A DNA stretch of 64,000 nt. It comes from Nostoc sp. UHCC 0702. GTDB taxonomy: Bacteria > Cyanobacteriota > Cyanobacteriia > Cyanobacteriales > Nostocaceae. A model generated the notes under the pieces. It was not told where the DNA came from. It saw nothing but the letters and a program-made list of their open reading frames with translations, and did no database searches. The stretch lies in the NCBI GenBank assembly GCA_017164015.1, contig CP071065.1, forward strand, positions 1,367,409 through 1,431,408. The letters run 5' to 3'. The position numbers and the translations under genes were made by a program. Below, piece by piece: positions 21,545 through 31,434 of this stretch (its first letter is position 1; each line of letters starts with the position of its first letter).

Positions 21545-22723
21545 TCACTGACGTTCCTTGCTTTTACAGGTCTTACGACCAATAGAAGTAGAGGGAACAT
21601 CTCGACTGGCGTTACTTTGGATCTGCCCGACCCTAGCGCTTGCACGACTTAAAATTACTTTGGCAGCATTTAGATCACGTTGCTCAATGTGTCCGCACTT
21701 GTTGCAAGAATGTGTCCGAGTGCTTAAAGATTTCTGGACTCTAGCGCCACAATTACTGCATTCCTGGCTTGTGAAGTGGGGAGGGACTGCAATAATTTCT
21801 CTGCCAAACTTCCCTCCAAAGTATTCGAGGAAGGCGCGGAAGTTGTACCAAGAAGCGTCAGTTATACTTTTGGCTAGTTTGTGGTTTCTTACCATGCCGG
21901 AAACATTCAAATCTTCCAAGACGACCTTAGCGTTAGCCAGGGTTAAGTTACGTGCGAGTCTCTTCGCATGTTCATCCCTTTGTCTTGTTACTTTTAAATG
22001 CTTACGGGCATAAATACCACGAGCTAATATCCTACCAGATGACCCTTTCTTCTTCTTGTAAATGTTACGTTGGCTAGCTTTAATCTCCTGTTCTGCCTTG
22101 CGTAGAAAACGCGGGTTCTCCTCATGATTACCGTTACTATCAGAGTAGAAATATTCCAATCCCACATCAATACCAATTTCTGATGTGGTTATTGGTGCAT
22201 CTTGTTGGTTGTCCACTTTGACGCAAAATTGAACATAGCAACCATCGGCTCTACGAACAATCCGAACTCGTTTAATTAGCTCAACAGGGTATTGATGAAT
22301 ATCCCATTTACCTAATAGCTTGAGTTCGCCAATACCTTTTTTATCAGTAAAAGTGATGCGGCGCTTACTTGGGTGCAGCTTCCAAGACTGTTGCTTATAT
22401 TCAACAGAACGACTATGTTTTTTGAACTTTGGATAGCCCTTCAACCCTTGTTTTTTAGCTTTGCAATTAGCAAAAAATCTGTTGATTGCTCGTTCAACAT
22501 TTTCTACTGATGCTTGACAGGCATGACTGCTTAAGTTTCTCACAAAGTCATATTCTGCTCGTAATTGAGTGTTGTACTGGTACAATTCTTTTTTGCCAAT
22601 ACCGTGATTATCCATCCAGTATCTAAGCACTTTGTTTCTGACAAACTGACTTGTGCGGATAGCTTCATCTATAGCTTTAGCTTGTGCTTTTTTAACAACT
22701 GCTTTGTATTCCAATACCAACAC
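21545..22723 (-). CDS. tnpB: TnpB RNA-guided nuclease, second copy
   Basis: 392 residues, the same length as the copy at 3411 but clearly diverged. RuvC residues are all present (GIDVGLEYFYSDS, VVLEDLNVSGM, EQRDLNAAKVIL), as are the zinc finger CSNCG...CNKCG and the N-terminal RTSQFVRNKVLRYWMDN block. It is predicted active. The divergent small gene at 22784 starts 61 bp from its start codon, so the two share a promoter region. Confidence 0.92.
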   Translation of the reverse strand: MLVLEYKAVVKKAQAKAIDEAIRTSQFVRNKVLRYWMDNHGIGKKELYQYNTQLRAEYDFVRNLSSHACQASVENVERAINRFFANCKAKKQGLKGYPKFKKHSRSVEYKQQSWKLHPSKRRITFTDKKGIGELKLLGKWDIHQYPVELIKRVRIVRRADGCYVQFCVKVDNQQDAPITTSEIGIDVGLEYFYSDSNGNHEENPRFLRKAEQEIKASQRNIYKKKKGSSGRILARGIYARKHLKVTRQRDEHAKRLARNLTLANAKVVLEDLNVSGMVRNHKLAKSITDASWYNFRAFLEYFGGKFGREIIAVPPHFTSQECSNCGARVQKSLSTRTHSCNKCGHIEQRDLNAAKVILSRASARVGQIQSNASRDVPSTSIGRKTCKSKERQ

Positions 22724-23142: not shown

Positions 23143-23850
23143 ATGAAACCTTACCAACAAATCGCGATCTTAGAATGTGGTGAACCACTAGTAAAGATTC
23201 CTTTGGAACTGTTTGCTGTGGAATTTCCACATCCCTATGAAAAATTAGGTGCGCCTTATGGGGAACATTCGCCTTATTATTTGCGCGAAAGTGTTATTGA
23301 CAATTTAATCCAAGCCCAAAATTATCTTCATCTGTTGTTTCCTGACTGGCGCATCCAAATCTTTGATGCTTATCGTCCGGTAAGCGTACAGCAGTTTATG
23401 GTAGATTACAGCTTTGCACAAGTGGTACAGCAACAAGGATTAATTGAGGTAGATTTATCAGCAAACCAACGCCAAGAAATTTGGGAGTTGGTTTATGAAA
23501 TTTGGGCTGTACCTAGTTTGGATGCACAAACTCCTCCACCCCACAGTACAGGTGCCGCTGTGGATGTGACGTTGGTAAATGATAGAGGACAAATAGTCGA
23601 TATGGGTTCGGTGATTGATGAATTGTCAGAGCGATCGCATCCCGATTACTATACCAATAGTTCTCATCCACAGGCTCAACAGTATCATGCCCACCGTCAG
23701 TTGTTGCAAAATGTGATGTTAAAAGCAGGTTTTCAACGTAATCCCAAAGAGTGGTGGCATTTTTCTTTTGGTGATCAAATGTGGGCTTGGCTGAATAATC
23801 AAGCTAATCCTGCTAATTCCTTAACAGCGCGCTATGGGCGTTTGGTATAA
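23143..23850 (+). CDS. D-Ala-D-Ala dipeptidase (VanX/DdpX-like, peptidase M15D)
   Basis: 235 residues. Zinc-peptidase motifs: IFDAYRPVSVQQ, PHSTGAAVDVTL (His and Asp ligands) and EWWHFSFGDQ (catalytic Glu and third ligand). The enzyme hydrolyses D-Ala-D-Ala; in non-resistant bacteria it serves peptidoglycan recycling or scavenging. No signal peptide, so cytoplasmic. No vanH/vanA neighbours, so not a resistance cluster. MysD further downstream is a D-Ala-D-Ala ligase homologue but not a partner. Confidence 0.9.
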   Translation: MKPYQQIAILECGEPLVKIPLELFAVEFPHPYEKLGAPYGEHSPYYLRESVIDNLIQAQNYLHLLFPDWRIQIFDAYRPVSVQQFMVDYSFAQVVQQQGLIEVDLSANQRQEIWELVYEIWAVPSLDAQTPPPHSTGAAVDVTLVNDRGQIVDMGSVIDELSERSHPDYYTNSSHPQAQQYHAHRQLLQNVMLKAGFQRNPKEWWHFSFGDQMWAWLNNQANPANSLTARYGRLV

Positions 23851-23996: not shown

Positions 23997-24470
23997 CTAC
24001 GCATCTTCAGGATTTAAGTGTCTTAACTCATCGGTGGTGTATGCTCCGATAGGACTCCAAAGTAGGTAGGGTATAAGTAATAGTGTTGCTAGCCCAGAAA
24101 TTGGCAAAACACATATTGCCAAAACAATGGCTGAACTTAGACCAATTAGCCCAATAATTTCCCCTGTCTTGAGGCTGCGGAACCTCAGCATTAAAGGTAT
24201 GTATGCAACAGTAATTATTTCTAGCAATAGGTATAGACCCATTAGCAGCCAAGTAACTACGCTTGCGGGATTTTTTTGCAAAACAATATTAGCTGAAGCG
24301 GCACCACAAATAAAAATTATAGTCCAAATCAGCGGGATAAACGGCTCAAAAATTAACCATCGAGGGCGACTCAACTGGGCGAACCATTTGACATCGCGGG
24401 GTGTGATGAAAAAACTAGCGATCGCAACTAAGAATGTTACAGCCCCTATAACCATCCAAGATGAAATCAT
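23997..24470 (-). CDS. tspO: TspO/MBR family protein, copy 1
   Basis: 157 residues with five predicted membrane helices. TspO-type motifs include KWFAQLSRPRW, PLIWTIIFICGAASANIV, WLLMGLYLLLEIITVAYIPLM and LLIPYLLWSPIGAYTT. TspO proteins bind tetrapyrroles and related ligands and act in stress and light responses. An ungapped paralogue of the same length (roughly 60% identical by eye) lies at 30961-31434, so the two genes bracket the mys cluster. Both point left. Confidence 0.88.
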   Translation of the reverse strand: MISSWMVIGAVTFLVAIASFFITPRDVKWFAQLSRPRWLIFEPFIPLIWTIIFICGAASANIVLQKNPASVVTWLLMGLYLLLEIITVAYIPLMLRFRSLKTGEIIGLIGLSSAIVLAICVLPISGLATLLLIPYLLWSPIGAYTTDELRHLNPEDA

Positions 24471-24976
24471 ACTTACACTACGTCTGTGTCTTTTGTCAAT
24501 TCCTACACTGCAAGTTTGACAATTTAGGGTCTATGTTTAATCAGTCCTTGGTTTGAATTTCAGTACATCATTACATATAGCGGCGGACGGACATCGAAGA
24601 CAGATTGATCAGCTAGCTGTAATGCTTGTCATATAGGCTTTTTATCCTTGTTCCCTGCTATATATTATTTGATTTTTAAGTAAAAGTACTCAATTATATC
24701 AAGTTCGGCTAATTACTTACGATCTAGTCGGTTTGCTTGGTAATAGGTAATGGGTAATGGGTAATAGGTAATACTCAAAACCAATTACCAATTACCAATT
24801 ACCAATACTTCGGCTTACCTCGACTTCGCTACTTCGACTGCGCTCAGCACAAGTCGGTACAAGTGCGAGAGTACAAGTTCCCAATTACCGACCTCCACAG
24901 ATATCATAAGTGTTTAAACGGACATGATATGAAATCTCTTTTGGGCCGATCTGGCTGTTCAGGAGATATATGTAGT
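24471..24976. other. Intergenic region upstream of the mys leader
   Basis: No gene. 24740-24815 contains a dispersed repeat made of GGTAATGG and CAATTACC words (GGTAATACTCAAAACCAATT) that recurs at 60118-60190. 24815-24880 carries a CGACTTCG/CGAAGTCG-type repeat remnant related to that at 23885-23915. Confidence 0.6.
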
Positions 24977-25005
24977 TTGTCAATAAGCATTCATACTTAT
25001 ATAGT
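24977..25005 (+). promoter_or_regulatory. Candidate sigma-70-type promoter far upstream of mysA
   Basis: TTGTCA (24977-24982), a 17-bp spacer, then TATAGT (25000-25005). It is close to consensus and points toward mysA, 1.13 kb away, with both leader copies in between. Prediction only. Confidence 0.35.
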
Positions 25006-25199
25006 AAAAAATCATACTTAGCTTATAAAACTAGCAAAATTCTAAAACTGTATATCTATCGTTTGAAATGTGCCTTTAGTATAGGTGCATTAATTTCCGA
25101 ACAATGCTATGTTTAGAAACGTAAATAAAATGTGAAGCGTTTTAAGCAGGTAAAATAACTGCTCAGGGTTGCTTCCCGCCCGTTAACCCATGCGCTAAA

Positions 25200-25575
25200 A
25201 GTCCGTAACTTCCTAGGACTACATCTACTGCTAACGCTTTAAAAATGAGAGACAATTCATGAAACTTCATTTATTCGGATTTTTAGGAGCCATAGGCTTC
25301 AAAAAAGACCCCTGACATCTCTGCTGCGCTTGCGAAAGTAGATGCGTTGAATATTTAGCGCTCTATTTTGCTATGCCTAACTTTTTAAATATCATTAAAA
25401 GCTCTGAGACATACCTCTTTTTCCTATTGAATGAGAGCGATTTCAGATGCAATATATTTTTGGCTAAGTATGCTTTTGTTAAAAGTGACTTAACTTCTAA
25501 CCGAATCAGAAAAAGAAAGCAACTTGGCTTCATGTTCGCATAACCTTTTATTGCACATAAAGGATAAAAATAATG
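25200..25575 (+). promoter_or_regulatory. mysA leader, copy 1 (diverged duplicate ending in a dead start codon)
   Basis: Collinear with 25780-26140 at an offset of about 565-580 bp. Shared landmarks: a 21-nt hairpin at its start (AGTCC...GGACT, 25200-25220), GAGAGA near 25250, TGCTGCGCTTGCGAAAGTA at 25322, CCTCTTTTT at 25414, GCGATTTCA, ACTTCTAACC, and finally AATAATGA with ATG at 25573. Reading from that ATG gives only M-N-T-V-stop. It appears to be an ancient tandem duplicate of the mysA 5' region. Confidence 0.75.
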
Positions 25576-25779
25576 AACACTGTTTAGACAAGTTTAAACC
25601 CATTGAAATAAAGCCTCATAGAGATAAATCACTTGTTTTGATAGAAAATTACGAAAATCAGGTGCAAGAATTTGCAAATAATGGTATGTTGAGAATTGTA
25701 AACAAAATCTTAAGCGCTTTCATCAGTCAGACAGTTTCTCTCACTTAGTTGCAATTCATTTTATTATTCATTTGCTAGA
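25576..25779. other. Spacer between the two mysA leader copies
   Basis: A 74-codon frame spans 25524-25748, but it begins with TTG inside the leader and has no ribosome-binding site or recognisable motif. I see no clear similarity to the mysA 5' coding sequence. Probably non-coding. Confidence 0.4.
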
Positions 25780-26137
25780 AGTTCCTAATTTTCAGGGACT
25801 ACACCTAGTTTTAACACTTTGGAAGTGAGAGAAAATCTATTAAGTCTTTCTGACTGTGTTTGCAGAAACATTAAGTTTCAGCAAATACTTATAAAATTTT
25901 TGCTGCGCTTGCAAAAGTTAATGTGCTAAAGCCTAGCACTACATATTCACATGCTTAAAATTGCGATTTTCATCAAATATATTGAGAAAATGCCTCTTTT
26001 TAATATTTGATTGGAGGCGTTTCAATTATTGGGAATTTTTAGCAAAGCATGTAATTCTAGAAGTTACATCACTTCTAGCTGAACTGAACACACCAATCAA
26101 CTCTGTACTGCTATTTTTTAACCAAAGGGAAAGAATA
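25780..26137 (+). promoter_or_regulatory. mysA leader, copy 2 (functional position)
   Basis: Begins with a hairpin AGTTCC...GGGACT (25780-25800) that pairs as well as the copy 1 hairpin despite base changes. It continues with TGCTGCGCTTGCAAAAGTTA (25901), CCTCTTTTT (25993), GGCGTTTCA and ACTTCTAGC, and ends AAGGGAAAGAATA before the mysA ATG. Likely a long, conserved 5' untranslated region. Confidence 0.65.
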
Positions 26138-27373
26138 ATGAGCATCGTCCAAGCAAAGTTTGAAGCTTCTGCAAATGCCTTTCATGTTGAAGGTTATGAA
26201 AAGATTGAGTACGATTTAGTTTATGTAAATGGAGTTTTTGATATTAAAAATCAAGAACTAGCAGATGCATACAGAAGTTTTGGTCGCTGCTTGGCCGTTG
26301 TAGATGCTAACGTTAGCCGTCTGTACGGTACTCAGATTCAGGAATATTTCCAATATTACGGGATTGATTTAACACTTTTTCCGATTACTATTACAGAACC
26401 AAACAAAACTATCCAAACTTTTGAGACAGTTATAGATGCGATCGCAGATTTCAAATTAGTTCGCAAAGAGCCAGTTTTAGTAGTAGGCGGCGGTTTAATC
26501 ACGGATGTTGTCGGTTTTGCTTGCTCTACTTACCGCCGTCGCAGCAATTATATCCGTATTCCTACAACTTTAATTGGTTTAATTGATGCCAGCGTAGCCA
26601 TCAAAGTCGCAGTTAACCATAAAAAACTGAAAAACCGTTTGGGTGCTTATCATGCTTCCAAAAAGGTTTTCTTAGACTTCTCTTTGTTGCGGACTTTGCC
26701 TACAGACCAAGTGCGTAACGGCATGGCAGAATTAATCAAAATCGCTGTAGTTGGTCACAAAGAAGTATTTGAGTTGTTGGAAAAGTACGGCGAAGAACTG
26801 TTACGCACTCACTTTGGTAATATTGACGCAACTCCAGAAATTCAAGAAGTAGCTCATGAAGTGACTTACAAAGCCATCAAAAAGATGCTGGAGTTGGAAG
26901 TACCTAACCTGCATGAGTTAGACCTAGATAGAGTAATTGCTTACGGTCATACTTGGAGTCCGACTTTGGAACTTGCACCCCTCGTACCGATGTTCCACGG
27001 ACATGCAGTCAACATTGATATGGCCTTATCTGCAACGATCGCAGCTAAACGAGGTTATATTACCACCCAAGAACGCGATCGCATTTTAGGCTTGATGAGT
27101 CGTATCGGTTTAGCACTCGACCATCCTTTGTTGGATGCAGAACTTTTATGGCGTGCTACCAAGTCTATCAGTCTTACCCGTGATGGTTTACAAAGAGCCG
27201 CCATGCCAAGACCCATTGGTGAGTGCTTCTTTGTCAACGACTTCACAGAAGAAGAATTAGCAGAAGTTTTGGCTGAACACAAAGAACTTTGCATCACCTA
27301 TCCTCGTGGTGGCGAGGGTGTAGAGATGTACCCAGCTACCGCGCCCAAAGAACTAGTCGGGAGTGCAAAATAA
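26138..27373 (+). CDS. mysA: Desmethyl-4-deoxygadusol synthase (DHQ synthase-like), MAA biosynthesis
   Basis: 411 residues from ATG 26138, with AAGGGA upstream. A sugar-phosphate cyclase of the dehydroquinate synthase superfamily: NAD-binding [42 protein letters not shown], and the metal-ligand histidine region [20 protein letters not shown] with [11 protein letters not shown]. The cyanobacterial enzyme (Ava_3858 type) converts sedoheptulose 7-phosphate to desmethyl-4-deoxygadusol. An in-frame N-terminal extension to 25961 is leader sequence, not protein. First gene of mysABCD; the mysB start overlaps its stop (TAATG). Confidence 0.95.
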
Positions 27374-30960: not shown

Positions 30961-31434
30961 TTAAGCATCTTGAGGATTTAGGCGAGCCATTTCCCAAGTT
31001 GTGTAAGTGCCTATGGGACTCCACAGTAAATAAGGAACTAATAATAGTGCTGCCCAACCGGAAATAGTTAAGACTATAAGTGTCAAAAAAGCACCTATAA
31101 TGAAACCTGTACCACCAATAATTGTGCCTGCTTTCAAGCTGCGAAGCCTGAACATTAAAGGTGTGTAGGCAATAGTCACAATTTCTAAAAGTAGGTATAA
31201 ACCTATTATTAACCACGTTGTAGTGGTTCCTGGGTTTTTTTCCCAAACAATATAAGCTGACCAAGCAGCACAAATAAATATTACAGTCCAGATGACGGGA
31301 ATGGCTGCTTCAAAAGTTAGCCAATTTGGTCTTTGTAGACGTTTGAACCACTTGCGATCGCTCGGCGTAATCAAGTTAGCTCCCAAGGCAACTATAAAAG
31401 CTACACCTCCAATCACCATCCAAGATTTAATCAT
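30961..31434 (-). CDS. tspO: TspO/MBR family protein, copy 2
   Basis: 157 residues from ATG 31434 (an upstream frame extension to 31503 is not conserved with copy 1). Five membrane helices with KWFKRLQRPNW, PVIWTVIFICAAWSAYIVW and LLVPYLLWSPIGTYTTWEM. It aligns without gaps to the gene at 23997-24470. It faces mysD convergently, with 187 bp between the stops. Confidence 0.88.
   Translation of the reverse strand: MIKSWMVIGGVAFIVALGANLITPSDRKWFKRLQRPNWLTFEAAIPVIWTVIFICAAWSAYIVWEKNPGTTTTWLIIGLYLLLEIVTIAYTPLMFRLRSLKAGTIIGGTGFIIGAFLTLIVLTISGWAALLLVPYLLWSPIGTYTTWEMARLNPQDA

Follow-up and report, generated by a model that had tools for sequence, protein, structure and literature searches.

Why is the DNA ahead of a mycosporine operon present twice in Nostoc sp. 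UHCC 0702, and do both copies serve a function? Mycosporines, which act as natural UV filters, are of interest both commercially and ecologically. The operon mysA, mysB, mysC and mysD is located within the window, i.e. the whole stretch of 64,000 nucleotides of contig CP071065.1 that was analysed and to which all positions refer. It is opened by mysA (26138–27373, plus strand), coding for a 2-demethyl-4-deoxygadusol synthase of the DHQ-synthase family (Pfam DHQ_synthase, E 1.5e-31) and preceded by the Shine-Dalgarno-like sequence AAAGGGAA (26125–26132, plus strand). An O-methyltransferase is encoded by mysB, and mysC is followed by mysD, coding for a D-Ala-D-Ala-ligase-like ATP-grasp protein. 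MysA orthologues are 71–96% identical among the Nostocaceae matches listed, and the strain is close to Amazonocrinis nigriterrae CENA67, with a MysA identity of 96%. From the comparison of genomes presented here, it is probable that an old tandem duplication of the mys promoter and of a structured 5′ leader has left two functional copies.

The surroundings of the operon display several features of their own. The mys cluster is flanked on both sides by TspO/MBR (tryptophan-rich sensory protein) paralogues (23997–24470 and 30961–31431, both on the minus strand), which are about 62% identical to each other. At locus L038 the match to the left paralogue spans residues 1–73 only, and at L039 the left paralogue alone was found in the stretch of DNA examined there. 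A VanX-like D-Ala-D-Ala dipeptidase (Peptidase_M15; 23143–23850, plus strand) is encoded near the cluster, MysD being also D-Ala-D-Ala-ligase-like, and a TnpB-like RNA-guided nuclease of an IS200/IS605-type element (NCBIfam guided_TnpB, E 5e-75) is encoded at 21545–22723 on the minus strand. AT-rich inverted short repeats (GGTAATGGGTAATAGG ... CCAATTACCAATTACC) at 24731–24811 gave spurious weak Rfam matches only. A palindromic dispersed repeat, ATATCATAAGTGTTTAAACGGACATGATAT, lies at 24900–24942, just 5′ of the first leader copy, and has matches of 28–45 nt in its own genome and in about 20 Nostocales genomes.

The initial annotation had described two collinear leader copies, at 25200–25575 and 25780–26140, sharing a number of short sequence blocks. 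All of these blocks are present, and a Blast comparison aligned 25083–25608 with 25660–26174 in a collinear manner (61% identity over 532 nt, E 4e-41). The Smith-Waterman local score of both copies (696) is far above that of 500 dinucleotide-preserving shuffled pairs (mean 357, sd 25, maximum 440), which settles the question whether the identity exceeds that of shuffled AT-rich sequence. The repeat was thus correctly recognised and its limits were not, as the duplicated unit of about 0.56 kb starts approximately 120 nt earlier, at a promoter-like block (25083 and 25660). Copy 1 covers 25083–25608 on the plus strand, as defined from self-alignment and relatives, and its homology to single-copy relatives weakly reaches upstream to about 25007. 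Copy 2 (25660–26174, plus strand) adjoins and enters mysA, the unit including the first ~36 nt of the gene and ending inside codon ~13. The sequence following the leader had been said to differ between the copies, which is not exact considering this extension of the homology into the coding sequence (ATGAACACTGTTTAGACAAGTTTAAACC against ATGAGCATCGTCCAAGCAAAGTTTGAAGC). Since the duplication carried the first ~36 nt of mysA along, the ATG of copy 1, from which only M-N-T-V-stop can be read (ATG AAC ACT GTT TAG ..., 25573–25608, plus strand), is the decayed 5′ end of mysA and no independent start; it had rightly been called a dead start. The start codon of copy 1 is also gone at L038 and L039, the two nearest relatives retaining that end.

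Two other classes of element were considered for the repeat and rejected. A mobile element or dispersed repeat was discarded, as a search of the own genome with 25150–26200 returned this region only and the covariance model of the leader start (CM R1, see below) the two copies only. A protein-coding leader, upstream open reading frame or gene remnant was discarded as well, since no frame is conserved and indels and stops are frequent in every copy; an open reading frame of 74 amino acids (25524–25748) matches the two nearest relatives only, as the DNA identity predicts.

The distribution of the leader was investigated with DNA located 5′ of mysA in GTDB genomes, from which a sequence profile was built. 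CM R1, corresponding to the first 150 nt, was run over 218 Nostocaceae genomes, and a second model (CM R2), corresponding to the part comprising hairpins H2 and H3, over 391 genomes of the order. In the window, copy 1 was detected with E 1.1e-23 by CM R1 (G000:C1:1392490-1392641) and E 2.6e-13 by CM R2, and copy 2 with E 4.3e-20 and 9.6e-12, respectively. All strong CM R1 matches (E<1e-6) are located upstream of mysA, in 33 of the 218 genomes, with a tandem in 17 and a single leader in 16. The initial annotation had proposed to look for the leader 5′ of mysA in other Nostocales, and it is indeed conserved in these 33 Nostocaceae genomes. The tandem spans five genera (both g1 genomes, g16, g36, one g27 and twelve g39 genomes) and occurs in each of the 12 g39 genomes having a match. 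Nothing beyond mysA leaders was matched by CM R2 in the 391 genomes, and two weak full-length CM R1 matches (E 0.003–0.009) inside a shikimate dehydrogenase gene were attributed to chance. The leader accompanies mysABC regardless of the presence of mysD downstream. Of the 152 Nostocaceae genomes that possess mysA, about 119 have no detectable leader, which is thus not needed for mys expression as a general rule. In a Richelia metagenome-assembled genome (L054, 4300–4551), a leader-like stretch (profile positions 99–367) was observed about 1.45 kb upstream of mysA, not adjacent to it.

The 5′ end of every copy displays the pattern GTGCAA/T, a spacer of 17 nt and TG-N-TATGTT (or TACATT). Six positions of the alignment (T24, G25, T27, A28, T31 and T32) are invariant in 34 copies. 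This block has the pattern of a sigma-70-type promoter with extended −10 element, from which transcription is predicted to start near 25120 and 25697. In the window, the putative promoters P1 (GTGCAT, 25085–25113) and P2 (GTGCAA, 25662–25690), both on the plus strand, have the 17-nt spacer, TATGTT and the TG of the extended −10 element, and they are recognised by the invariant columns and by their conservation. Among 45 genome pairs, the identity of the promoter block averages 79% (copy 1) and 71% (copy 2) versus 56% at the fourfold-degenerate sites of mysA, and the leader body shows 53% (copy 1) and 49% (copy 2), near the neutral level. The body of copy 1 is more conserved than that of copy 2 in 39 of the 45 pairs. 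That the leader itself is constrained had been proposed initially and is supported by the comparison of genomes; the promoter-like block heading each copy had been missed.

Downstream of each promoter block lie about 440 nt that contain five small hairpins (H0 to H4), revealed as five recurrent minima by windowed folding; all positions given are on the plus strand. H0 (AGCAG/CTGCT) is located at 25145–25163 in copy 1, where it pairs with two-sided changes, and is not clearly formed in copy 2 of the window. H1 corresponds to the hairpin of 21 nt noticed initially (copy 1, AGTCC/GGACT, 25200–25220; copy 2, AGTTCC/GGGACT, 25780–25800). H2 is found at 25344–25361 (GCGTT/AGCGC, followed by TCTATTTTG) and 25923–25939 (GTGCTA/TAGCAC), and H3 at 25414–25438 (CTCT/AGAG) and 25992–26018 (GCCTC/GAGGC). 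For H1 and H2 of copy 2, the assignment relies on the sequence and on base-pair counts. H4 was identified from the sequence in copy 1 (TTAAAAGT/ACTTCTAA, 25479–25500), where it contains one mismatch and is lost in many relatives; it is perfect in copy 2 (CTAGAAGT/ACTTCTAG, 26057–26078). Folding of the window leaders gave z −4.47 for copy 2 and −2.36 for copy 1. A perfect inverted repeat of 12 bp (25735–25746 with 25823–25834) surrounds H1 of copy 2 and may form a longer-range helix.

As the loops differ in length, RNAalifold failed to detect most of the hairpins in small, automatically built alignments, and alignment-light tests were therefore used. In the first of them, the 5′ arm of each hairpin was paired in turn with its own partner and with the corresponding region taken from other genomes, using 29 representatives less than 75% identical. 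The own arm pairs better in all five hairpins, with family-wide z values of −4.0 (H0), −5.1 (H1), −5.0 (H2), −5.7 (H3, the value listed for either copy) and −3.5 (H4; −3.35 with copy 2 only). The plus strand outscored the minus strand at H0 to H3, and both strands scored about equally at H4. The depletion of G-U cells was slightly weaker than that of A-C cells, which favours the sense of mysA only slightly. In an unbiased all-against-all comparison of 3,140 pairs of leader segments (background mean −0.04, sd 1.07), the top six corresponded to H2, H3 and H1 with z from −4.1 to −5.3, the latter value belonging to H2; an outer extension of H1 and longer-range pairing were hinted at with z of about −3.2 to −3.7. 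In plain MAFFT alignments, the paired percentage, the two-sided changes and the covariation score were higher than in any of the 500 shuffles and in any slid control, which answers the covariance check suggested initially with compensatory base-pair changes at the hairpins. Copy 1 taken alone still covaries (H1 0/5000 with z −5.3, H2 0/5000, H3 11/5000), even where the ribosome site and the start codon are gone. The original argument for a constrained, possibly structured leader carried little weight, as the same pattern is expected from a tandem duplication by itself and the homology also enters mysA. The claim is now supported by conservation in 33 genomes and by the compensatory hairpins.

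The best surviving alternative is a regulatory region acting at the DNA level only, in which the dyads are sites for a regulator such as OrrA and RNA structure is irrelevant. It gains some weight from the palindrome TTACATT-N4-AATGTAA, which several promoter blocks hold across the −10 region, and from OrrA itself, a DNA-binding protein described in a 2026 paper as the only characterised prokaryotic regulator of mycosporine (MAA) synthesis (PMC13131328). H1, H2 and H3, however, change their letters and keep their pairing (GCGC/GCGC, GUGC/GCAC, ACGC/GCGU), and a protein site recognised by its sequence would not withstand such changes. A role at the DNA level only is considered unlikely.

The history of the duplication could be followed in the g39 clade, where the two copies cluster apart from each other, each group mirroring the species pattern; the duplication is therefore older than those species. 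A single clean split into a copy-1 and a copy-2 clade was rejected (AU p 0.011), as the second copy of L039 falls among the copy-1 sequences, an arrangement read as conversion between copies. The single leader of genome G035 (L119) is a chimera, its 5′ part resembling copy 1 of the relative L040 (e.g. 41/49 versus 32/48) and its 3′ part copy 2 of L040 (37/44 versus 20/43). As read from these matches, it is a tandem collapsed by recombination. The duplication is hence dispensable in G035 and the tandem can be lost, and it is still kept in 17 genomes. Promoter conservation and copy-1-only covariation clearly indicate that copy 1 is held by selection, and at the level of genome comparison both copies appear to be maintained.

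Copy 1 could also give rise to a small RNA of its own, which would imitate the leader and titrate away a factor binding to it. In the Anabaena-type clade, copy 1 indeed retains profile positions 1 to ~240–430, with the promoter and H0 to H3, and has lost the ribosome site and the start codon, and a T-rich stretch follows H2 in the window. Against this, a search for intrinsic terminator-like sites between the copies of the window gave none, and the T-rich tail shows no strong conservation; H2 with this tail scored as terminator-like once in the window and was rejected as a terminator, as such sites are no more frequent than in shuffles (2 versus 0.9±1.1) and the tail varies. A small RNA is thus regarded as very unlikely. 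Least probable of all is an accidental duplication leaving copy 1 as a functionless relic, to which the decayed mysA fragment, the loss of the 3′ end of copy 1 in many genomes and the loss of the tandem in G035 would correspond, but which conflicts with a copy 1 promoter block more conserved than fourfold sites and than that of copy 2, with hairpins of copy 1 that covary by themselves, and with the persistence of the tandem in 12/12 g39 genomes with a match and in four further genera, despite its possible deletion by homologous recombination.

According to the preferred reading, two functional promoter-leader units, each unit would start with its sigma-70-type extended −10 promoter, followed by ~440 nt transcribed as 5′ untranslated leader and folding into a string of small hairpins with conserved pairing. 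The transcript from P2 would carry a leader of ~440 nt, and that from P1 one of ~1,020 nt with both hairpin arrays. Points against this reading are the slight size of the strand preference, the lack of a clear H0 in copy 2 and the imperfect H4 in copy 1 of the window, the many mysA genomes in which no leader is detected, and the collapsed tandem of G035. The likeliest function would be a second start site for a UV- and osmotic-inducible operon, together with control of the stability or translation of the mys mRNA at the RNA level and a tie to the response to UV and osmotic stress. Under UV-B, the mys genes of Chlorogloeopsis fritschii PCC 6912 are up by 4.8–7.7 log2 (PMC7693272); this strain is among the single-leader genomes. 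A more specific and rather improbable proposal is a new class of RNA switch, in which the 5′ arm of H3 would alternate between its 3′ partner and the ribosome site of mysA, and tandem leaders would sharpen or split the UV and osmotic response. Between the 5′ arm of H3 and the Shine-Dalgarno region, pairing (about −4.6 versus a mean of −3.1 kcal/mol) is more stable than that of most leader windows. As it showed no significant covariation, a Shine-Dalgarno switch via H3 is retained as a possibility only.

A search of Rfam with window positions 24400–26500 gave no bacterial regulatory family; the matches with E<1 were eukaryotic snoRNA and miRNA models on the AT-rich repeat at 24731–24811, far below gathering thresholds. 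A further 11 leader loci gave no match at E<=0.5, and no description of the mysA leader was found in the literature searched, mainly open-access papers. The leader is located directly upstream of mysA in 33 genomes and shows compensatory base-pair changes, as expected for a structured cis-regulatory leader. Since no known family matched, it is proposed as a candidate new RNA family of this kind, of which the stably inherited tandem form is unusual. If true, this would account for a possible loss of native UV control in heterologous promoter-swapped constructs, and the single- and double-copy strains represent a ready set for probing the effect of the duplicated leader.

Structured 5′ leaders, riboswitches among them, are conserved structured regions between promoter and start codon and are sometimes duplicated. 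The mysA leader shares with tandem riboswitches the structured region in tandem ahead of a biosynthetic operon. In contrast to them, it consists of small separate hairpins, with no compact multi-branched aptamer core, known ligand or Rfam match, and its unit also duplicates the promoter and the first codons. Stress-inducible operons may possess tandem promoters, giving two start sites for one operon, and two predicted starts would likewise drive the mys operon; here, each promoter has its own structured leader of ~440 nt and the transcripts would differ in leader copy number. A third comparison is the mysA promoter of Nostoc flagelliforme, reported to be bound by the LuxR-family response regulator OrrA, with which the mysA regulatory region and the induction by osmotic stress and UV are shared (PMC13131328). 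The accessible part of that paper presents OrrA as a DNA-binding response regulator and mentions no UTR or leader structure. If true, a conserved and covarying RNA leader with its own promoter, which many filamentous cyanobacteria keep twice in series, would extend this control to the post-transcriptional level.
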